Positions 1 through 24,320 of a DNA stretch of 32,385 nucleotides are shown piece by piece. The number at the start of each line of letters is the position of its first letter. Position 1 is the first letter of the stretch. Below the pieces are notes generated by a model. It worked only from the letters and a program-made list of their open reading frames with translations. It had not been told where the DNA came from and did no database searches. Made by a program: the position numbers and the translations under genes. The DNA comes from Rhodospirillales bacterium (lineage in GTDB: Bacteria > Pseudomonadota > Alphaproteobacteria > Acetobacterales > Acetobacteraceae), in the NCBI GenBank assembly GCA_018971565.1, contig JAGXAO010000014.1, forward strand, positions 1 to 32,385, read 5' to 3'.

Positions 1-1418
1 ACGGTGAGGCCGGAGAGTTTGATCGTCGGCTGGCCTACCCCCACAGGCACGCCCTGGCCGTTTTTGCCGCAGGTGCCAATGCCCGGGTCCAGCGCCGGGT
101 CGTTGCCAATCATCTCCACCTTGGTCAGCGCGTCCGGCCCGTTGCCGATGAGCGTGGCACCCTTTACCGCCGCGCCGATCTTGCCGTCTTCGATCATGTA
201 AGCCTCGGAGGCGGCGAAGACGAACTTACCGGAGGTGATGTCCACCTGCCCGCCGCCGAAATTGACTGCATACAATCCGCGCTTCACGGAGCGGATCATG
301 TCGTCCTTATTGTCCTGCCCGCCGAGCATGATGGTGTTGGTCATGCGCGGCATGGGGGCGTGGGCGTAGCTTTGGCGGCGGCCATTGCCGGTGGCGCGCA
401 TGTTCATCAGCCTTGCGTTCTGCCGGTCCTGGATGAAGCCGGTGAGGATGCCGTCCTCGATCATCACGGTGCGGGAGGTGGGGGTGCCTTCATCGTCGAT
501 GGTGAGGGAGCCGCGGCGGTTGGGGAGGGTACCGTCATCCACCACCGTGACACCCTTGGAGGCGACGCGGCTGCCCATCAGCCCGGCGAAGGCGCTGGTC
601 TGCTTGCGGTTGAAATCGCCCTCCAGACCGTGGCCGATCGCTTCGTGCAGGAGAATGCCGGGCCAGCCGGGGCCAAGCACCACGGGCATCTCACCCGCCG
701 GAGCGGGGACTGCGTTGAGATTCACTTCCGCCTGGCGGATGGCCTCGCGTACCGCGTTCTGCCAGAAATCCGGGGCGATGTAGGCGCCGTAGCCGGAGCG
801 CCCGCCAGCGCCATGGCTGCCGGATTCGCGCTTGCCGTTTTCCTCCAGCACCACGGACACATTGATCCGCACCAACGGGCGGATATCCGCCACGCGGGCG
901 CCGCCGGCGCGGATGATCTCGATCACCTGCCACTCCCCGGCGATGCTGGCCATCACCTGCACCACGCGGGAGTCTGCCGCGCGGGCGAAATCGTCGATCT
1001 GCTTGAGCAGGGCCGCGCGGTCCGCGAAGGGGGCTTCGCCCAGCGGGTTCACGCCCTCGTACAGCGGCGCGCTGGCGGGGGCGGGATCGGCGGCGGAAAC
1101 GCTATGCTCCATGGCCTTGGCTGCGCGGATGGTTTCCGCCGCGCGGGCCAAAGCCGGGGCGGAGAGGTCTCCGGCATGGGCGAAATAGGCGGCCTCCCCC
1201 AGCACGGCGCGCAGGCCGAAGCCCCGGCGCGTGTCGAAAGACGCGGCGCGGATACGGCCATCGTCGAGCGAGATGGATTCCGATTCCCGGTATTCCAGGA
1301 ACAGCTCGCCATCGTCCGTGCCGTCCAAAGCGGTGGCGATGTGCTGGTGCGCGGCGTCCAGATCCAGTCCCTGGGGGCCGTGGAACAGCTCGTCTGCCTT
1401 GTTAAGCGCGTCACTCAT
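1..1418 (-). CDS. tldD: Metalloprotease TldD, cut at the left edge near its C-terminus
   Basis: TldD is the zinc-protease subunit of the cytosolic TldD/TldE (PmbA) pair, which degrades unfolded peptides and trims some modified peptides. The reading frame starts with ATG at 1418 (MSDALNKADELF). It carries the family's HExxxH zinc motif as HEAIGH at residues 258-263, and near the C-terminus GTCGKNGQGVPVGVGQP, typical of TldD. 472 codons are present and the frame is still open at base 1, so against a usual length near 480 only a few residues are missing. A GAGGAG ribosome site lies 9 bases before the ATG and overlaps the stop of the upstream heme A synthase paralogue (13-base gap), so tldD is probably the last gene of that operon. 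No tldE partner is visible. Identification is very secure. Confidence 0.95.
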   Translation of the reverse strand, partial: MSDALNKADELFHGPQGLDLDAAHQHIATALDGTDDGELFLEYRESESISLDDGRIRAASFDTRRGFGLRAVLGEAAYFAHAGDLSAPALARAAETIRAAKAMEHSVSAADPAPASAPLYEGVNPLGEAPFADRAALLKQIDDFARAADSRVVQVMASIAGEWQVIEIIRAGGARVADIRPLVRINVSVVLEENGKRESGSHGAGGRSGYGAYIAPDFWQNAVREAIRQAEVNLNAVPAPAGEMPVVLGPGWPGILLHEAIGHGLEGDFNRKQTSAFAGLMGSRVASKGVTVVDDGTLPNRRGSLTIDDEGTPTSRTVMIEDGILTGFIQDRQNARLMNMRATGNGRRQSYAHAPMPRMTNTIMLGGQDNKDDMIRSVKRGLYAVNFGGGQVDITSGKFVFAASEAYMIEDGKIGAAVKGATLIGNGPDALTKVEMIGNDPALDPGIGTCGKNGQGVPVGVGQPTIKLSGLT

Positions 1419-1431
1419 CTCAAAACACTCC

Positions 1432-2478
1432 TCATTCCGCCGGGGCGAAGACCCTGGCAGGTGCCGCCACCGCGCCGCGCAGGCCATGGCGCGCGCCAAT
1501 GGCAGAGGCAAAGAGCAGCACGGCATTCAGCTCATGCACAAAACCGAGCTCGTTATTTCCCATTACAAGTGTCGCCATGCCGAGCACATATTGCAACGCC
1601 ACCAGTCCGGCCAGCAGCAGAAATAAATCCCGCGTGGCCGGCGGCAGCTTCATCCGCAGCCCCATCACCGCAGTGGTAAGCGCGGTGAGCGCGGTTATGG
1701 TGGCCAGCAGCCGGTGGCAGAACTGCACCATGCCCTTGTTGGTAACGAAATTCATCCAGACAGGGCTTTGGCCAAACATGTCCGGCGGCAGCCAATGGCC
1801 ATCCATGGCGGGAAAACTGTTGAAGACGTGCAGCGCCCCGGAGGTGGCGACCAGCGCGCCAAACCCCATCGTCACCCAGATCAGCGCCACAGTGGCGGTG
1901 GAAAAACCACGCAGAATAACGGCTCCCTCAATCCGCGCCGGCTCAGGGTTACGCAGGGTCATGCCTGTCCATAACAAGGCTGCCAGTATGAGCATGGCGG
2001 AGAGCAGATGCGGTGCGGCCCATTCTGGCGGCGGGGAGAGCACGCCGGGGTACAGGCCCGTCTGCACCATGTACCAGCCATAAATGGCCTGACCCGCGCC
2101 AAGCAGGAAGATGCAGCCCAGCCAAAACGCCAGCCCATGCTGGATGCGGCCTTTCAACAGAAACACCGCGAAGGGGATGGAAAACACCAAAGCCATCAGC
2201 CTGCCCCAGCAACGGTCCAGAAACATCGGCCAGAACAGGGCTTTATACTGCGCCATGCCGATGGGGTGCGCCTGGTACTGCGCCGTGCGCTGGAACAGGC
2301 CGTAAAGCTGGTTCCAATCCGCTGCGTTCATGGGCGGAATGAAGCCGGTGAAAGGCCGCCAGACCTGGATGGAAAAACTTGCCCCGATGGTGCGGGCATG
2401 CCCGCCGCCCACCACCATGCCAAAAACCATGGCGGCCAGCAGCAGAAGCCAGTTGCCGACGGCGCGGTCTGTCTTCAA
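1432..2478 (-). CDS. Heme A synthase (CtaA/Cox15) paralogue with degenerate N-terminal half
   Basis: A polytopic membrane protein of 348 residues in the Cox15/CtaA family, which oxidises heme O to heme A for cytochrome oxidase. The family has two four-helix halves, each with a His pair. Here the C-terminal half looks canonical (FNSFPAMDGHWLPPD near residue 220, QFCHR with His255, GFVHELNAV with His315). The N-terminal half is eroded: the catalytic E-Y-x-H block reads M-F-L-D, so the Glu is Met85 and the His is Asp88, and the usual TR-x-x-SGLS stretch reads HARTIGASFS. His157 is kept. The start is TTG at 2478, overlapping the stop of the upstream homologue by four bases (TTGA), with GAGG 9 bases before it. 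Translational coupling is likely. On sequence alone it should not be catalytic by itself; a helper or heme-relay subunit is an inference. Confidence 0.85.
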   Translation of the reverse strand: MKTDRAVGNWLLLLAAMVFGMVVGGGHARTIGASFSIQVWRPFTGFIPPMNAADWNQLYGLFQRTAQYQAHPIGMAQYKALFWPMFLDRCWGRLMALVFSIPFAVFLLKGRIQHGLAFWLGCIFLLGAGQAIYGWYMVQTGLYPGVLSPPPEWAAPHLLSAMLILAALLWTGMTLRNPEPARIEGAVILRGFSTATVALIWVTMGFGALVATSGALHVFNSFPAMDGHWLPPDMFGQSPVWMNFVTNKGMVQFCHRLLATITALTALTTAVMGLRMKLPPATRDLFLLLAGLVALQYVLGMATLVMGNNELGFVHELNAVLLFASAIGARHGLRGAVAAPARVFAPAE

Positions 2479-3551
2479 CGTGTCGCACCTCGCAGACGGT
2501 GGAGCAGCAGCAGCATCGCGCCCATCAGCGCCACGGCGTTCATCTGGTGCACCACGCCAAGTTCGATCTTGCCGGAAACCAAGGCGGTAACACCCAGCAC
2601 GAATTGCAAAATCACCAGTCCACCCGCCAGCAGGGCGGCATCGCGCACCGGCGGCGGGGCTTCACGGCGCAGCACCCGCACGGTGATGGCCAGGATGGCA
2701 AGCGAGGCCATCACCGCGAGGCTTTGATGGTCGAAGATAACGGTGGCGGGGTTTGAAAACGCGCCGCTGGGCCAGTGGGCTGGCGGTTGCCCGGTGCCCA
2801 CCTGCCTGGCCATGGAAAAATCCGCGATGCCATGAATGCCGGAGACAATGGTGCCGCCCAGCATCGCCAGCAGCAGCACCACGAAGGAGCCGACGCTGTG
2901 GCCGCGCAGGCCCTTTAAGCCCGCATAACGCGCGGGCTCGGGCGCGGTGACGGTAAAGGCCGTCCACAACACCGCGCTGAACAGGAACATGGCGCCGAAG
3001 AAATGCAAGGAGAGCCAGCCAGGGGCAACGGCGGTGGAATCCGGGTCGAACCCAGAGGAGACCATCAGCCAGCCGATGAGCCCTTGCAGCCCGCCGAGCA
3101 CGAACAGCAGGAACAGCCATTTGATCAGGCGTTTTTCAATACGCCCGGTAAGTGCCAGAACAACCAGCGGCACCAGCAGCACGGCACCCATCAGCCGCCC
3201 CCATAGCCGGTGGAAATATTCCGGCCAGAACAATTGCTGGAAACCGTGCATGCCCATGCCGGGGTGCAGAATCTGGTATTGCGGGATGGTCTTATACAGC
3301 GCGAACAGCTTAGCCCAGGCATCCTGGCTCATCGGCGGCAGCACGCCGATGATCGGCTCCCATTTCATGATGGAAAGCCCGGAACCGGAATCCCGTGTGT
3401 AACCGCCGATGCCGACCATTACCCAGATCATGAAGGCGAGCAGATAAAGCCAGTTGGCCACCAGCTTCCGGTTGGCCTGGCTGGCCGCACCCCCGCTTGG
3501 GCGCGCGGCGTTGAAAGAGCTGCTTGCGGGACGGGCTGTATCACTAGGCAC
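2475..3551 (-). CDS. ctaA: Heme A synthase CtaA/Cox15, canonical N-terminal half
   Basis: 358-residue multi-span membrane protein, predicted to convert heme O to heme A in the cytoplasmic membrane. The N-terminal half is textbook: GGYTRDSGSGLS at 49-60, then PEYFHRLWGRL, which supplies Glu111 and His114 (equivalent to the catalytic Glu and heme-ligand His of Bacillus CtaA), and His183 in LHFFGAM. The C-terminal half keeps His275 and His335, but the normally conserved NTFPLMDG region is replaced by unrelated sequence (IADFSMARQVG), and QFDHR has become IFDHQ. The start is GTG at 3551, supported by AAGGAG seven bases upstream. A polar, low-complexity N-terminus of about 28 residues precedes helix 1. 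It is first in a probable ctaA-paralogue-tldD operon. The family call is secure; whether it needs its neighbour is open. Confidence 0.92.
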   Translation of the reverse strand: MPSDTARPASSSFNAARPSGGAASQANRKLVANWLYLLAFMIWVMVGIGGYTRDSGSGLSIMKWEPIIGVLPPMSQDAWAKLFALYKTIPQYQILHPGMGMHGFQQLFWPEYFHRLWGRLMGAVLLVPLVVLALTGRIEKRLIKWLFLLFVLGGLQGLIGWLMVSSGFDPDSTAVAPGWLSLHFFGAMFLFSAVLWTAFTVTAPEPARYAGLKGLRGHSVGSFVVLLLAMLGGTIVSGIHGIADFSMARQVGTGQPPAHWPSGAFSNPATVIFDHQSLAVMASLAILAITVRVLRREAPPPVRDAALLAGGLVILQFVLGVTALVSGKIELGVVHQMNAVALMGAMLLLLHRLRGATR

Positions 3552-18972: not shown

Positions 18973-19025
18973 CCCTACGCCCGCCTTACCGCGTGTGCCT
19001 CAATTCAGAAAAATCGGAGCTTATC

Positions 19026-20405
19026 ATGTTGAACGAAATCAACCTTGGCGTTGACTGGCAGGCGCTGGACGCCGCACATCATTTTCACCCCTTCACTGAC
19101 CATAAGGAGCTGCACGAGCAAGGTGTACGGCTGATCACCTCTGCCGAGGGCGTTTATCTGCACGATTCCAATGGCAACAAGATCATGGATGGCATGGCCG
19201 GGCTGTGGTGCGTGGCCGTGGGCTATGGCCGCCAGGAACTGGTGGAAGCCGCCACCCGGCAGATGACCAAACTGCCTTATTACAACAGCTTCTTCAAAAC
19301 CACGAACGAGCCCGCCGTATTGCTGGCAAAGAAACTGGCGGAGATTTCTCCCCCCGGGTTCGAGCATGTATTTTTTGCCTGCTCAGGGTCTGAGGCGGTG
19401 GATTCCGCCATCCGCAACGCGCGGGTGTACTGGAAGACCATCGGCAAGCCGGAAAAGAAAATCGTGATCGGCCGGGAATATGGCTATCACGGGTCTACCA
19501 TTCTGGGTGCTTCCGCCGGCGGCATGAAAGACATGCACCGCCAGGGTGGCGATCTGCCGCATTTCGCGCAAGTGCTGCCGCCCTATTGGTATGGCAAGGG
19601 CGGGCAGATGAGCCCGGAGGAGTTCGGCCTTTACGCCGCGCGCGAGGCTGAGAAAAAAATTCAGGAGCTTGGGCCTGAAAACATCGCCGCCTTTATCGGT
19701 GAGCCCATCCAGGGTGCCGGCGGCGTGCTCATCCCGCCTTCCACCTATTGGCCAGAGATCAACCGTATCTGCAAGCAATACGATATCCTGCTGATCGCCG
19801 ATGAGGTGATCTGCGGCTATGGGCGCACCGGTAAGATGTTCGGCACGGATACATTCGGCATCCAGCCGGATATGATGACCACCGCCAAGGGGCTGACCTC
19901 CGGCTATCTGCCGCTCTCCGCCTTGCTTATGAACAACCGTGTGGCGGATGTGCTCATCAACCAGGTCGGCGAATATTATCACGGCTTCACTTATTCCGGG
20001 CATCCGGTTTCCTGCGCGGTGGGCTTACGGAATCTTCAAATCATCGAGGACGAGAAACTGGTGGAGGGCGCCGCGCGCAAGGGCGAATTGCTGCGTGAAA
20101 AACTTAACCAGGCCATTGGCGACCTGCCAATTGTAGGCGAGATCCGTGGCGTGGGGCTCATCGGCGCCATCGAGCTGACGGCAGACAGGCGCACCCGCAA
20201 ATTTTTTGAAAAAAATGGCCGCGTGGGAGGCATCTGCCGTGACCATTGCATCGCCGCAGGGCTGATGATGCGCGCCACGCGCGACACCATGCTGTTCTCC
20301 CCGCCGCTCACCATTTCGGAAGCCGAAATCGAGAAATTTGCCGCAATGGCCAAGATCGCTTTCGAGGCAACCTTCGCTGACGTCCGCGCGGAGGTAGCAT
20401 TGTGA
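19026..20405 (+). CDS. Class III aminotransferase, putrescine/polyamine:pyruvate type
   Basis: A PLP enzyme of 459 residues. PLP site residues are clear: GSEAVDSAIRNAR (phosphate loop), the YGYHGST stacking region, LIADEVICGYGRTG with Asp259, and Lys288 in TTAKGLTSGY. The sequence style (HPFTDHKELHEQG, VRGGICRDH-like end, MLFSPPLTIS) matches the SpuC group, which transfers amino groups from putrescine, spermidine or related amines to pyruvate. ATG 19026 is preceded by GGAG six bases upstream. Its stop overlaps the glutamine-synthetase-like gene (GTGA), and agmatine deiminase and a permease follow, so amine catabolism is well supported; the exact donor (putrescine, gamma-glutamylputrescine or other) cannot be read from sequence. 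Confidence 0.9.
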   Translation: MLNEINLGVDWQALDAAHHFHPFTDHKELHEQGVRLITSAEGVYLHDSNGNKIMDGMAGLWCVAVGYGRQELVEAATRQMTKLPYYNSFFKTTNEPAVLLAKKLAEISPPGFEHVFFACSGSEAVDSAIRNARVYWKTIGKPEKKIVIGREYGYHGSTILGASAGGMKDMHRQGGDLPHFAQVLPPYWYGKGGQMSPEEFGLYAAREAEKKIQELGPENIAAFIGEPIQGAGGVLIPPSTYWPEINRICKQYDILLIADEVICGYGRTGKMFGTDTFGIQPDMMTTAKGLTSGYLPLSALLMNNRVADVLINQVGEYYHGFTYSGHPVSCAVGLRNLQIIEDEKLVEGAARKGELLREKLNQAIGDLPIVGEIRGVGLIGAIELTADRRTRKFFEKNGRVGGICRDHCIAAGLMMRATRDTMLFSPPLTISEAEIEKFAAMAKIAFEATFADVRAEVAL

Positions 20406-21766
20406 ACATGCTTACCAACCCCGACATCGAGGCGAAATCCGCACTGCTTTCCGGCGCGGACTATATTGAAGCCTTCGTGATCGACGTAAACGGCGTGCCC
20501 CGCGGCAAATGGCTGCAGCGGGACAAAGCGAAATCCCTGCTGGGCGGCGGCATTGCCTTGCCGCGCTCGGCCTATCTGCTGGATATCTGGGGCCGGGATA
20601 TCGTCGAAGGCGGTATCGCCTACGACACCGGCGACCCGGATGGAATGTGCGTGGCCGTGCCCCATTCAATCACCCGCATGGGCTGGGCAGATGGCAATGT
20701 GGTGCAGGCCCTGCTTACGATGCGCGAGGCCGATGGCGAAATTTATTATCTGGACCCGCGCAGCGCCCTCACACGGGTGTTGCAGCGTTACACCAAAGCC
20801 GGGCTAACTCCGGCTTTGGGCGTGGAGCTTGAGTTCTATCTGGTAGACCCCCGGCAGGACGGTTTGAAAATTGCCCCGCGCGGCGCTGATGAATCCGGCT
20901 GGCGTGGCTGGCAGATAGACGCCGTGGGCCTGGGCGAGGTGCATGATTACGAGCCGATTCTGCGTGAAATGATGGCCTGCGCGAAGGCGCAGGATATCAT
21001 TCTGGAAACGCTGGTGAGCGAATCCGGCCCCGGCCAGTTCGAAGTAACACTGAAATATTCAACGGATGCCTTGCGCGTGGCGGACAGCGCCACTCTCTTC
21101 AAGCGCACCATCAAACAGGTGGCGCGCAAGCACGGCCTCACTGCCACCTTCATGGCCAAGCCCTACGGCCAATGGGCGGGCTCTGGCATGCACGTGCATA
21201 TGTCAGTGCTCGACAATGCCGGCAAAAACATCTTCGCCGGCACGGCCGAACGCGCATCACCGGAGCTTTACAACGCACTGGGCGGCATTATTCACAACAT
21301 GCCAGACACAATGCTCACCCTGGCGCCGCATGCCAATTCCTATCGCCGCTTCGCGCCGGGTGTGCACGCCCCCACCTATGGCGATTGGGGGCACGATAAC
21401 CGCATGGCATCCGTGCGCGTCATCACCGCGGACCCGGCGGCCTCGCGCATCGAGCATCGTGTCGCGGGGGCGGACTGCAACCCCTACCTCGCCTTTGCCT
21501 CTCTGCTTGGCACCGCCTTGCAGGGTATTGAAACCAAAGCTGACCCTGGGCCGGAAACCCATGGCACGGTGCGCAGCCCCACCGCCCCAAAACTGCCTAT
21601 CGCCTGGTCTGGCGCTGTGGATCGTTTCGCCACATCAACCGCCATGGGCGAAATTTTCGGCAAGGATTTCCAGCGGTATTATATCGCCTGCAAGCGCCAG
21701 GAGATCAGCGAGTTGCGCAAACGGATCTCCGACGTGGAATATGACGCCTATTTGAAAAATGCCTGA
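20402..21766 (+). CDS. Glutamine synthetase-family gamma-glutamylamine ligase
   Basis: A 454-residue glutamine synthetase fold protein, probably of the PuuA/SpuI type that joins glutamate to putrescine or another amine with ATP. Visible motifs: the metal-site strand LGVELEFYL, ESGPGQFEVTL, SGMHVHMSV (His in the ATP/metal site), NSYRRFAPGVHAP and WGHDNRMASVRV, and RIEHRVAGADCNPYLA. There is no adenylylation-loop Tyr region of GlnA, and the company of aminotransferase and agmatine deiminase argues against nitrogen-assimilation GlnA. The start is GTG 20402, with GGAGG seven bases before it and the preceding stop overlapped; an ATG two codons later is less well placed. Substrate amine is inferred, not shown. 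Confidence 0.88.
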   Translation: MNMLTNPDIEAKSALLSGADYIEAFVIDVNGVPRGKWLQRDKAKSLLGGGIALPRSAYLLDIWGRDIVEGGIAYDTGDPDGMCVAVPHSITRMGWADGNVVQALLTMREADGEIYYLDPRSALTRVLQRYTKAGLTPALGVELEFYLVDPRQDGLKIAPRGADESGWRGWQIDAVGLGEVHDYEPILREMMACAKAQDIILETLVSESGPGQFEVTLKYSTDALRVADSATLFKRTIKQVARKHGLTATFMAKPYGQWAGSGMHVHMSVLDNAGKNIFAGTAERASPELYNALGGIIHNMPDTMLTLAPHANSYRRFAPGVHAPTYGDWGHDNRMASVRVITADPAASRIEHRVAGADCNPYLAFASLLGTALQGIETKADPGPETHGTVRSPTAPKLPIAWSGAVDRFATSTAMGEIFGKDFQRYYIACKRQEISELRKRISDVEYDAYLKNA

Positions 21767-21773
21767 GGCGCTC

Positions 21774-22853
21774 ATGAACGATACAATCACACCGCGTGAG
21801 TCTGGCTTTTCCATGCCCGCCGAATGGGCGCCGCACGCAGGCTGCTGGATGATCTGGCCCGAACGGCCAGACAACTGGCGCCTGGGCGCCAAACCCGCGC
21901 AGAAGGCGTTCACCGCTGTCGCCACCGCCATCTCACGGTTTGAACCCGTAACTATGCTGGTGAGCGCGGCACAATATGAAAACGCCCGCGCCTCTCTGTC
22001 GCCTGAAGTGCGCGTGGTGGAGATGAGCAGCAACGATGCCTGGGCGCGGGATATCGCTTGCACATTCCTGCTTGGCAAAAATGGCGAACTCGCTGGCGTG
22101 GACTGGCCTTTTAAAAGCTGGGGCGGTTTGTACTTCCCGTGGGACAAGGACGACGCCATCGCCCAGAAAATGCTGGAGATGGAACGGGCGAAGCGTTTCC
22201 GCGCGCCGCTCGTCATCGAAGGCGGCGCCTTGCATGTGGATGGCGAGGGCACGGTGCTGGTGGCCGAGCAATGCGTGCTGAACGAGAACCGCAACCCGGA
22301 TGTGCGGCGGCAGGATATGGAGCGGATGCTGAAGGATTATCTCGGCACATCCCATGTCATCTGGCTGGAAAACGGCGTGCCGCATGACGAAACCGATGGG
22401 CATGTCGACAATCTCGTCTGCTTCGTGAAGCCCGGAATGGTGCTGCTCACCTGGTGCGACGACCCGGCCGATCCGCACTACCAGATCAGCCGGGCGGCCG
22501 AAGCGCGGCTGAAGGATGCGCGCGACGCCAAGGGGCGTGCGCTCACCATCGAACGCATCCCGATGCCAACGCCGATGTTCTACACCGAAGCAGAAGCAGA
22601 AGGTGTGGATGCCACCGCCAGCGGCATGAACCGCAAAACCGGGGAACGCCTCGCCGCGTCTTACGTGAATTTCTACATCGCCAATGGCGCCATCATCGCC
22701 CCCGCCTTCGGGGTGGAAACAGATGAGCCCGCACGCAAAGTGCTGACCCGGCTGTTCCCGGAGCGCGAGATTGTGATGCTGCCAGCACGCGAAATTCTGC
22801 TGGGTGGCGGGAATATTCACTGCATTACGCAGCAGCAGCCAAAAGCCGTTTGA
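21774..22853 (+). CDS. aguA: Agmatine deiminase
   Basis: AguA hydrolyses agmatine to N-carbamoylputrescine and ammonia. The 359-residue protein shows the family motifs: WPERPDNWRLGAKPAQ, NDAWARD with Arg92/Asp93, LEN-type EGGALHVDGEGT, DETDGHVDN with His210, SYVNFYIANG, and GGGNIHCITQQQP with the nucleophile Cys350. One oddity: after ARD the family normally has x-G-P-T-F, but here it reads I-A-C-T-F (residues 94-98). ATG 21774 is chosen because GAGG stands five bases upstream; an ATG at 21759 would overlap the previous gene. The gene follows the ligase by seven bases. No N-carbamoylputrescine amidohydrolase (aguB) is in the window. Confidence 0.93.
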   Translation: MNDTITPRESGFSMPAEWAPHAGCWMIWPERPDNWRLGAKPAQKAFTAVATAISRFEPVTMLVSAAQYENARASLSPEVRVVEMSSNDAWARDIACTFLLGKNGELAGVDWPFKSWGGLYFPWDKDDAIAQKMLEMERAKRFRAPLVIEGGALHVDGEGTVLVAEQCVLNENRNPDVRRQDMERMLKDYLGTSHVIWLENGVPHDETDGHVDNLVCFVKPGMVLLTWCDDPADPHYQISRAAEARLKDARDAKGRALTIERIPMPTPMFYTEAEAEGVDATASGMNRKTGERLAASYVNFYIANGAIIAPAFGVETDEPARKVLTRLFPEREIVMLPAREILLGGGNIHCITQQQPKAV

Positions 22854-22933
22854 TACGCGCAGGGCGGGCGCGGCTTCCGCCGAAAACGAACGACAACAGG
22901 GAATTTCTACAGACTTATCTGCAGCACTCAAAA

Positions 22934-22945
22934 CCCCGCACGGGG
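22934..22945 (+). promoter_or_regulatory. Small hairpin next to the permease ribosome site
   Basis: CCCC-GCAC-GGGG (22934-22945) directly abuts AGGAG, the ribosome site of the permease. It lies in the 102-base gap after aguA, which also holds a GGCGG/CCGCC stem near 22865. It might tune permease translation; at four base pairs it may be chance. Confidence 0.3.
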
Positions 22946-22955
22946 AGGAGCCAAT

Positions 22956-24320
22956 ATGAGCACGAAACTCAAAGCTGACTCTCTATCATTTTTCGAATCC
23001 ATCATCATGGGCGTGGCGGGCTCCGCGCCAGGCTTTTCCATCGCGGTCGCCATTGCCGGGCTGCTGGCCACGGCGGGCAGCGTCTCGCCCAATGCAATCT
23101 TGATCTTCGCGGTACCGATGCTCGGCATCGCCGTGGCTTATAAGGGCCTCTCCCACAGAATGCCGCACGCAGGTGCTGCCTATGAATGGACGAAATCCGT
23201 GTTTGGAGGATTTTTCGGCTATTTTTCCGGCTGGGCGCTGCTCATCGCGGCCATGGTGTTCATGGTCACCGGCTCGGTGCCGTTGGGCACCGCCGTGCTG
23301 CAATTGTTCGACCCCGCGCTGGCAACAAATGTCTGGCTCACCACAAGCATCGGCGCTGTCTGGTTCGTCGCCATCGGGCTGGTGCTCATCGCCGGCATAG
23401 AACTAACCAGCAAGATCCAGGTGGTGATGAGCAGCGTCGAGCTGGGTATTCTCCTGATCATCTCAATCGCCGCCTTCGCACATAGCGGCACGCATGGCGC
23501 GGTATCCGCTTTTTCCTGGTCCTGGTTCGGGTTCCATTACCCGGCGGGCAGCTTCGCGGCCTCGGCCCTCAGCGTCGTGTTTCTCTATTGGGGTTGGGAT
23601 GTAACCTCGAACCTGGCGGAGGAAACCAAAGGGCAGGAGCAGAACCTCGCCGGGCGGGGCGGATTTTTCTCAATCTTCGCCACCATTGCCTCCTTCGTCG
23701 CCTTCACCGTGGCGGCGCTGATGATGTTTTCGCTGAAGGATGCCTCGGGATTTTCCGATAACCTCATCTACCATGTCGCCATCGCGGCGGGGCTTGGCAA
23801 AGCAGGCGGCTACGCGGCGGCCCTGGCGCTCATCCTCTCCTCTGTCGCCACGCTGGAGACCACGATGCTGCAATTCTCCCGCACCTTGTTCGCCATGGGG
23901 CGGGACCGCGCCTTGCCGGGCTATTTCGGCCAGGTGCACGAAAAAACCATTACCCCCGTGCGCACCATGTATCTGCTGCTTATCATTGGGCTGGGGCTTA
24001 TTGTCATTTCCAGCTTCCTGCCTTCAATTTCGGCAATCTTGAATGATTCCGTGGCCGCCATCGCCATCCAGGTGTGCTATTATTACGGCCTCGCCGGGCT
24101 GGTCTGCGCCTGGGTGTACCGCAAGAGCAGCGGCTTCACCTTCGTGCAATATGTTATCTTCCCAACCCTTTCCGCCATCGCGCTCATCGGGTTGGGCATC
24201 TATGCCATCACCACCTTCAACGCCATCGTGAATATCGTGGGCATAGGCGGGCTTGCCATTGGCATCGTGTTCTACCGCCCCAGGGGCTATGGCCGCTCCT
24301 CGATTATCGCGGCGGAATAA
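22956..24320 (+). CDS. APC-family amino acid/polyamine permease
   Basis: A 454-residue inner-membrane transporter with about twelve hydrophobic helices. The N-terminal MGVAGSAPGFSIAVAIAG is the substrate and sodium/proton-site region of APC transporters. GLSHRMPHAGAAYEWTKSVFG and ELTSKIQVV are typical of the amino acid-polyamine-organocation superfamily, as is the ILSSVATLETTMLQFSRTLFAMGRDRALPGYF segment. AGGAG precedes the ATG at a good distance. It comes last in the amine cluster, 102 bases after aguA, and a strong terminator follows. The substrate is probably agmatine, putrescine or a related amine because of its neighbours; sequence alone cannot say. Confidence 0.92.
   Translation: MSTKLKADSLSFFESIIMGVAGSAPGFSIAVAIAGLLATAGSVSPNAILIFAVPMLGIAVAYKGLSHRMPHAGAAYEWTKSVFGGFFGYFSGWALLIAAMVFMVTGSVPLGTAVLQLFDPALATNVWLTTSIGAVWFVAIGLVLIAGIELTSKIQVVMSSVELGILLIISIAAFAHSGTHGAVSAFSWSWFGFHYPAGSFAASALSVVFLYWGWDVTSNLAEETKGQEQNLAGRGGFFSIFATIASFVAFTVAALMMFSLKDASGFSDNLIYHVAIAAGLGKAGGYAAALALILSSVATLETTMLQFSRTLFAMGRDRALPGYFGQVHEKTITPVRTMYLLLIIGLGLIVISSFLPSISAILNDSVAAIAIQVCYYYGLAGLVCAWVYRKSSGFTFVQYVIFPTLSAIALIGLGIYAITTFNAIVNIVGIGGLAIGIVFYRPRGYGRSSIIAAE

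Follow-up and report, generated by a model that had tools for sequence, protein, structure and literature searches.

Two Overlapping COX15/CtaA Genes

What is the role of a second COX15/CtaA gene that overlaps a copy with a full set of heme A synthase residues and lacks part of that set itself? This question is raised by the window analyzed here, a stretch of DNA of 32,385 nucleotides from Acidocella (contig C29; the genome totals 2.16 Mb and is assembled into 166 contigs). It encodes two overlapping COX15/CtaA genes on the minus strand: an upstream copy, A (2475..3551; 358 amino acids, GTG start), the predicted catalytic heme A synthase, and a downstream copy, B (1432..2478; 348 amino acids, TTG start), its predicted non-catalytic twin. 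Both reading frames of the original prediction were recovered, as was the four-base overlap TTGA (2475..2478, minus strand) that joins the stop codon of A to the start codon of B. The proposal that the two are co-translated is consistent with public records, in which 40 of 48 pairs overlap by NTGA, and the genes are probably translationally coupled.

B is followed by a gene of the PmbA/TldD family (3..1418, minus strand) that reaches the edge of the window; the name tldD is a label based on its Pfam match. Upstream of A are genes for a deaminase, FolE, and ApaG. Elsewhere in the window (18993-24320), genes for an aminotransferase, a glutamine-synthetase-like protein, a peptidyl-arginine-deiminase-family protein, and an amino acid permease follow one another and are perhaps a cluster for polyamine or agmatine use, a role that is a guess.

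Both copies match PF02628 (COX15-CtaA; cut-off of 29.9 bits) over its full length (profile positions 2-321 of 322), with E values of 7e-78 and 1e-75 (262 and 255 bits), and they are the only matches to the COX15/CtaA family in this genome. Neither reaches the cut-off of 550 bits for NF045570, the NCBIfam equivalog for alphaproteobacterial heme A synthase (183.9 bits for A and 191.2 bits for B), and this model thus names neither copy. Family models recognize both genes alike, so that a tally of two heme A synthases would be misleading.

Residues Retained and Lost in Each Copy

Residues of both copies were compared by aligning 37 single copies with 48 A copies and 49 B copies, those of the window included. 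The single copies comprised 37 of 44 single-copy loci, following exclusion of near-duplicates (L046, L077, L078, and L079) and fragments (L088, L091, and L093); they were best-scoring matches or were drawn from genomes in which at least two matches occurred and are therefore biased toward canonical sequences. One A copy cut by a contig end (L137_A) was excluded from the alignment, and a fragment from a Nitrospirae metagenome-assembled genome (MAG; L152) was excluded from counts of pairs. The Bacillus subtilis numbering of the catalytic Glu57 and the heme-site His residues, used below for equivalents, follows the literature (excerpts of PMC8239418, PMC9145763, PMC7327177, PMC12808453, PMC10715153, and PMC13213658).

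Copy A of the window carries the catalytic motif E111-Y-F-H114 in helix II (3210..3221), His183 (His2; 3003..3005), His275 (His3; 2724..2729 with the adjacent Gln276, where single-copy relatives have His-Arg), and His335 (His4; 2547..2549), all on the minus strand; the Glu and the four His residues are as predicted. The catalytic Glu and the equivalents of His60, 123, 216, and 278 are kept in 48/48 A copies. The N-terminal half of A had been described as perfect, which overstates its conservation: of 65 N-half columns with conservation of at least 95% in the 37 single-copy relatives, it retains 56.

The C-terminal half of A is altered in Acidocella. In the ECL3 stretch (residues 246-257; 2781..2816, minus strand), NxFPLMxG is replaced by G-x-G-x-P-P in all 38 Acidocella A rows; the FPLM..G loop motif is absent, and 31 of the 38 rows have a loop shortened by 5-6 residues. 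Beside His3, the following Arg is Gln and the Gln three positions before is Ile or Leu, each in 38/38 rows. The predicted degeneration of this half thus held for the loop motif and extends to the Gln and Ile beside His3, but the half is altered rather than empty, given that both heme-ligand His residues (His275 and His335) remain in 38/38 rows. The ten A rows from the Acidiphilium side, including the genus denoted g24, retain canonical C-half motifs. A separate change was seen in Acidiphilium-side A copies (e.g., L139 and L145), in which the first-loop T-R-L-T-G-S has been lost, along with its Arg, a residue found without exception in 37/37 single copies; in Acidocella A, it is the opposite loop that has lost its motif.

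In copy B, Met85-F-L-Asp88 (2215..2226, minus strand) replaces the E-x-x-H of the catalytic site. Glu occupies the catalytic position in 37/37 single copies and 48/48 A copies, versus 0/49 B copies, in which the residue is Met (44), Asn (4), or Asp (1). Likewise, the His1 position is His in all single copies and A copies, versus 0/49 B copies, where Asp is invariant (49/49). His2, His3, and His4 are present in every row of the alignment. In the window these are His157 (2008..2010), His255 within a canonical QFCHR (1711..1725), and His315, which is followed by a B-specific Glu316 (1531..1536; Glu in 49/49 B copies, Gln in 37/37 single copies and 48/48 A copies), all on the minus strand. The ECL3 motif of B, NSFPAMDGHWLP (1786..1821, minus strand), is likewise of the canonical type. 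Throughout the B copies, the C bundle keeps His3 and His4 (the equivalents of His216 and His278) and the Gln and Arg of Q-F-x-H-R in 49/49, with Phe at a frequency of 1.00 in both the Acidocella and Acidiphilium groups; the first-loop Arg is retained in both groups and Asn-x-Phe-Pro-x-Met-x-Gly is largely retained. The residues named for B in the original prediction (Met85, Asp88, His157, His255, and His315) are therefore as claimed: B has no catalytic block but has canonical C-half motifs, and it additionally keeps the second His of the N half.

B has also acquired conserved residues of its own. Gly24, Thr65, Asp88, and Glu316 are identical in 49/49 B copies at positions where single copies and A commonly have other residues, while His27 (2398..2400, minus strand; 96% of 49, Ala in most single copies), Pro156, and Met301 are conserved in 96-98% of the 49. 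The pattern at the catalytic and heme sites is not due to chance: 49/49 B copies lack Glu and have Asp at His1, and 48/48 A copies retain Glu and all four His.

Distribution of the Losses Between Halves

Ninety-nine columns are at least 95% conserved in the single copies. In the N half, 58 of 65 such columns are kept by Acidocella A and 38 by Acidocella B; in the C half, the two keep 15 and 24 of 34, respectively. Columns lost from only one of the Acidocella copies number 1 (A) versus 21 (B) in the N half and 12 versus 3 in the C half, which yields a Fisher p of 2.8e-6 when columns are treated as independent. Merging neighboring columns into blocks reduces these counts to 1 versus 9 and 4 versus 3 (p = 0.10). 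On the Acidiphilium side, the private losses by column (5 versus 21 and 5 versus 5) are not significant (p = 0.10). Both copies have lost the same column in 13 cases, versus 9.7 expected, indicating that the losses do not avoid one another. Across the rows examined, the motif losses as such are fixed. These data suggest that complementarity of the halves is real as a description of Acidocella and statistically soft beyond the named motifs.

Taxonomic Distribution of the Pair

Matches to a profile of B above 520 bits were identified in 26 of 397 genomes of the family, all of them Acidocella (14/14), Acidiphilium (g96; 11 of at least 13), or the one further genus, g24 (1/1). Two g96 genomes, with completeness of 88% and 83%, yielded only a fragment or nothing matching the B profile. 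The next-best match in the family sample after these 26 genomes was an A copy (355 bits). Among 385 genomes sampled from the class, a B-type match was detected only in the window's own genome (625 bits; 315 bits in the next genome). Scanning of genome contigs with the B profile recovered 49 loci, with A directly upstream of B in 48; the 49th is the Nitrospirae MAG fragment of 129 residues. Open frames are full-length in 48/48 pair loci, and both copies are on one contig in 38/38 Acidocella genomes, that of the window included (A is cut by a contig end in one, G007). Neither copy was found alone with the same substitutions in the 38 genomes of the genus or in 48 of the 49 B-profile loci, the remaining locus being the fragment.

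At the level of the whole protein family, 240 genomes of the taxonomic family had a PF02628 match, of which 212 had one and 28 had two or more. Seven of the 28 were Acidocella, and re-inspection of the other 21 revealed an adjacent full pair in seven (g24 and six g96) and pieces, weak matches, or copies on separate contigs in 14. Another 15 genomes, which had two matches or otherwise gave an odd result, yielded no full adjacent pair. In genus g89, part of a second cox15-like sequence was observed (G227:C207:10059-10577), about 3 kb from a full copy and on the opposite strand. No natural fusion of A and B was seen among the pairs; B is in frame with A in L026/L127 and L032/L130, but a TGA lies between them.

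Evolutionary History of the Pair

Phylogenetic reconstruction with 53 rows (18 pairs and 17 single copies, the latter as outgroup) placed A and B together, apart from single copies, with support of 100/100. B formed one clade (100/100), and monophyly of all A copies was weak (61/10). A quicker reconstruction with 85 rows did not recover an A clade, with Acidocella A grouping weakly with B and other A copies grouping weakly with single copies (support of 71 each). Three derived residues are common to A and B and occur in at most 5% of single copies: Pro at A110/B84, Trp at A145/B119, and Asp at A304/B284. Gene order is also shared, in that a PmbA/TldD gene follows B in 48/48 pair loci, and 16 of 44 single-copy loci also have such a gene next to cox15 when flanks of up to 1.5 kb are considered. 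An origin of B by acquisition from elsewhere was rejected on the basis of the grouping of A with B (100/100), the shared derived residues, and the synteny with PmbA/TldD.

The predicted duplication and subsequent divergence of the two overlapping genes is thus supported by the 53-row tree, the shared derived residues, and gene order. We infer that a single tandem duplication occurred in situ before Acidocella, g24, and Acidiphilium diverged, and this simplest history is well supported. On the same simplest history, B would have lost Glu and His1 on its own stem, and the C half of A would have been altered later, in Acidocella alone. The catalytic loss is common to the whole B clade and the C-half loss of A is private to Acidocella, which suggests that the complementary halves came later.

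Both copies are under purifying selection, with dN/dS below 1 in 21/21 pairs of loci (0.04-0.57 for A and 0.09-0.52 for B; 21 disjoint locus pairs, whole gene, dS up to 1.2). Identities of A and B are correlated across the 48 pairs (r = 0.83), except in some cases where one partner seems to have been exchanged. Between L124, which is from a MAG, and L125, identity is 0.94 for B versus 0.63 for A, and between L105 and L108, dS is 0.34 for B versus 0.83 for A. The MAG Acidocella sp. clean1021 contains two A-B loci, L112 (k141_2946991) and L124 (k141_2835916), with swapped partners: A of L112 is nearest L118 and its B nearest L107, whereas A of L124 is nearest L108 and its B nearest L125. This swap stems either from recombination where A and B join or from a chimeric assembly.

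Predicted Structure and the Likely Requirement for Heme a

AlphaFold2 models of the two copies (pLDDT of 88.5 and 90.1) have an eight-helix, two-bundle fold. Among the best 50 structural matches of each model, the heme A synthases 6a2j and 8aw5 were the only ones with a probability of 1.00 for both, with modest TM-scores (0.54-0.70). A sequence search of the PDB yielded no match for A and one chance match for B.

One contig of the genome (C58) ends with ctaC and the first part of ctaD, and another (C80) carries ctaD (truncated at the contig end), ctaB, ctaE, and SURF1; ctaD and SURF1 are supported by profiles, and ctaC, ctaB, and ctaE were read by eye from translations. SURF1 was identified in 22/22 pair genomes tested and CtaD above the cut-off in 20 of 22, the exceptions being the copy cut by a contig end in the window's genome and a 225-residue piece in G230. 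Given these oxidase genes, heme a is very likely needed by this organism. A is the only candidate heme A synthase with a full set of residues.

Oxidase assembly in the genomes with a pair has a further peculiarity. Cox11/CtaG (PF04442) is missing from 17/17 pair genomes tested (11 Acidocella, five Acidiphilium, and one g24) and was found in 7/7 tested single-copy genomes with SURF1 and an aa3-type CtaD above the cut-off; two genomes without cox15 also lack Cox11. Among the genomes listed, Caa3_CtaG (PF09678) is present in 14/14 Acidocella, 1/1 g24, and 13/13 g96, and it is present in 2 of the 7 Cox11-bearing genomes. It is possible that the CuB-insertion factor was swapped on the same branch on which the gene pair arose. 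We also considered whether B replaces Cox11 as the CuB chaperone and rejected this, since Caa3_CtaG is a simpler substitute and the presence of B and absence of Cox11 co-occur as one event on the tree.

A Probable Synthase With a Proposed Non-catalytic Partner

Published mutants bear on what each copy might do. In yeast, the E166A variant makes heme o and no heme a (excerpt of PMC13213658), and a mutant with His1 changed to Leu is inactive and still binds hemes b and o (excerpt of PMC12808453); the catalytic Glu is strictly conserved in the sequence set described in that excerpt. These mutants predict a B that does not synthesize heme a, although it may bind heme. In Aquifex, the enzyme forms a trimer whose core consists of C bundles (excerpt of PMC7327177). 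From the published mutants and structures, A is expected to be active and B inactive, with heme binding and an oligomer formed through C bundles. Together, the mutants and the trimer lead us to read B as a non-catalytic, heme-binding partner that joins A through its intact C bundle.

We therefore favor, with confidence slightly better than even, an arrangement in which A is the synthase and B a non-catalytic heme-binding subunit acting with A in a mixed oligomer. Heme o would be bound in the N bundle of A and oxidized with the help of Glu111, His114, and His183. B would be a catalytically dead paralogue, or pseudo-synthase, that still folds as an eight-helix CtaA, retains the C-bundle heme b ligands and one N-bundle His, and may give its C bundle to the core of the oligomer and perhaps hold heme o or heme a. 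Partnership with B would have relaxed constraint on the C bundle of A itself in Acidocella. Physical contact between A and B is what we infer from this reasoning. Evidence for an enzyme with a partner includes the fixed tandem order, dN/dS below 1, the invariance of Asp88 and Glu316 in B (49/49), and the retention of Glu and four His in A (48/48). Some evidence points the other way: the re-pairing of A and B in some genome pairs would speak against a tightly co-evolved interface, canonical C-half motifs in A on the Acidiphilium side give no apparent sign that A needs B, column losses in the two copies do not avoid one another, and the presence of B and the absence of Cox11 are each single events on the tree.

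How dependent A is on B separates this reading from a synthase divided between two genes. The original prediction had offered both a split synthase with complementary halves and one enzyme plus a heme-binding helper, and the latter fits better, since A keeps the residues reported as essential in CtaA/Cox15 (excerpts of PMC12808453 and PMC13213658) and the ECL3 loop of B. subtilis can be resized with activity intact (excerpt of PMC8239418). For the same reasons, A may well be active without B, and the C-half change in Acidocella A need not imply dependence on B. An obligate complex seems rather doubtful; in it, A would contribute the catalytic N bundle and B the C-bundle core with its heme b, and Acidocella A would have surrendered part of its cofactor half. 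Also unlikely in our estimation is a strict split enzyme, an obligate heterodimer or heterotrimer in Acidocella in which A would provide N-bundle catalysis and B the sole proper C-bundle heme b site. The private losses in Acidocella argue for it (1 versus 21 in the N half and 12 versus 3 in the C half, A versus B), as do the Gln in place of Arg beside His3 in 38/38 Acidocella A copies and the failure to find a full A of the Acidocella kind without B in the 38 genomes of the genus and the B-profile loci. It is opposed by the retention of His275 and His335 in A (38/38), the canonical C-half motifs of Acidiphilium-side A despite the presence of B, and the block-level p of 0.10. As an origin for the pair, complementary halves are not supported: ten Acidiphilium-side pairs have canonical C-half motifs in A together with a B that already lacks Glu and His1. 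The intact motifs on that side suggest that B arose as the dead twin of an enzyme with intact C-half motifs, and the complementary halves would be a later elaboration of this enzyme and dead-twin pair, the C half of A having changed subsequently in Acidocella only.

It is also conceivable, if rather improbable, that A works alone and B has left heme A synthesis to become a separate heme or oxidase-assembly factor, such as a sensor or a carrier that delivers heme a made by A to CtaD/SURF1. The conserved residues specific to B (His27, Pro156, and Met301 at 96-98%; Asp88 and Glu316 in 49/49) would suit such a factor, and assembly of the oxidase does differ in the same clade, which lacks Cox11 (0/17) and has Caa3_CtaG. 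Yet B is fixed beside A and not beside the cox operon, SURF1 is present in 22/22 pair genomes, and Caa3_CtaG already provides a CuB-insertion factor where Cox11 is missing. That B is a functionless duplicate in decay, as loss of its catalytic residues might imply, is scarcely credible: dN/dS is below 1 in 21/21 pairs, its new residues are invariant, its frames are open at full length in 48/48 loci, and it is retained in 38/38 genomes. Those data refute decay unless selection keeps only the 3' end of A or the expression of the next gene. The acid-loving Acidocella/Acidiphilium group has an old, conserved twin gene beside that of its synthase, without the catalytic residues and with three of four heme-site His kept, a pattern suggestive of an enzyme that operates together with a non-catalytic partner.

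Comparison With Known Heme A Synthases

With the catalytic site lost from one partner and, in Acidocella, the cofactor half altered in the other, the pair places the two functions on two genes, each of which can be removed or altered separately. It bears on why heme A synthase is an oligomer and on the role of the C-half heme b, which an excerpt of PMC12808453 describes as not fully elucidated. Among the full-text literature matches listed, no title or abstract concerns a heme A synthase paired with a dead twin, the excerpts cited here do not describe one, and the excerpt of PMC10715153 on the Cox15 tree for this order does not mention two copies. If confirmed, a heteromeric heme A synthase would be the first as far as literature searches show.

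The closest known relatives are the type 2 (class D) Cox15/CtaA enzymes of Alphaproteobacteria and mitochondria, with which the pair shares the family, eight helices, Glu and four His (in A), and a tldD neighbor (16 of 44 single-copy loci). It differs from them in having two adjacent genes, a B without Glu and His1, and, in Acidocella, an A without the ECL3 motif. Natural loss of catalytic or ligand residues has a parallel in the CtaA variants E57N, E57K+H123N, H60N, and H278D (Table 1 of PMC8239418, seen in excerpt); those are types of CtaA rather than tandem partners of an intact copy, and a change of His1 to Asp is absent from that table. In related bacteria, a dead respiratory paralogue beside a heme enzyme is known from Acetobacter, where a COX1-like protein without metal ligands clusters with ctaB and is explained as structural support (excerpt of PMC10715153), although it belongs to another protein family. 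The two structures that both models match in fold with a probability of 1.00, the B. subtilis CtaA (6A2J) and the Aquifex trimer (8AW5), are single-gene enzymes with Cys pairs, and the Aquifex trimer is homomeric (excerpt of PMC7327177). Finally, the four-helix enzyme of the archaeon Aeropyrum pernix, a homodimer of half-length proteins (excerpts of PMC12808453 and PMC9145763), illustrates that the two bundles need not share one chain; its halves are identical, whereas the pair described here comprises two full-length, unequal copies.
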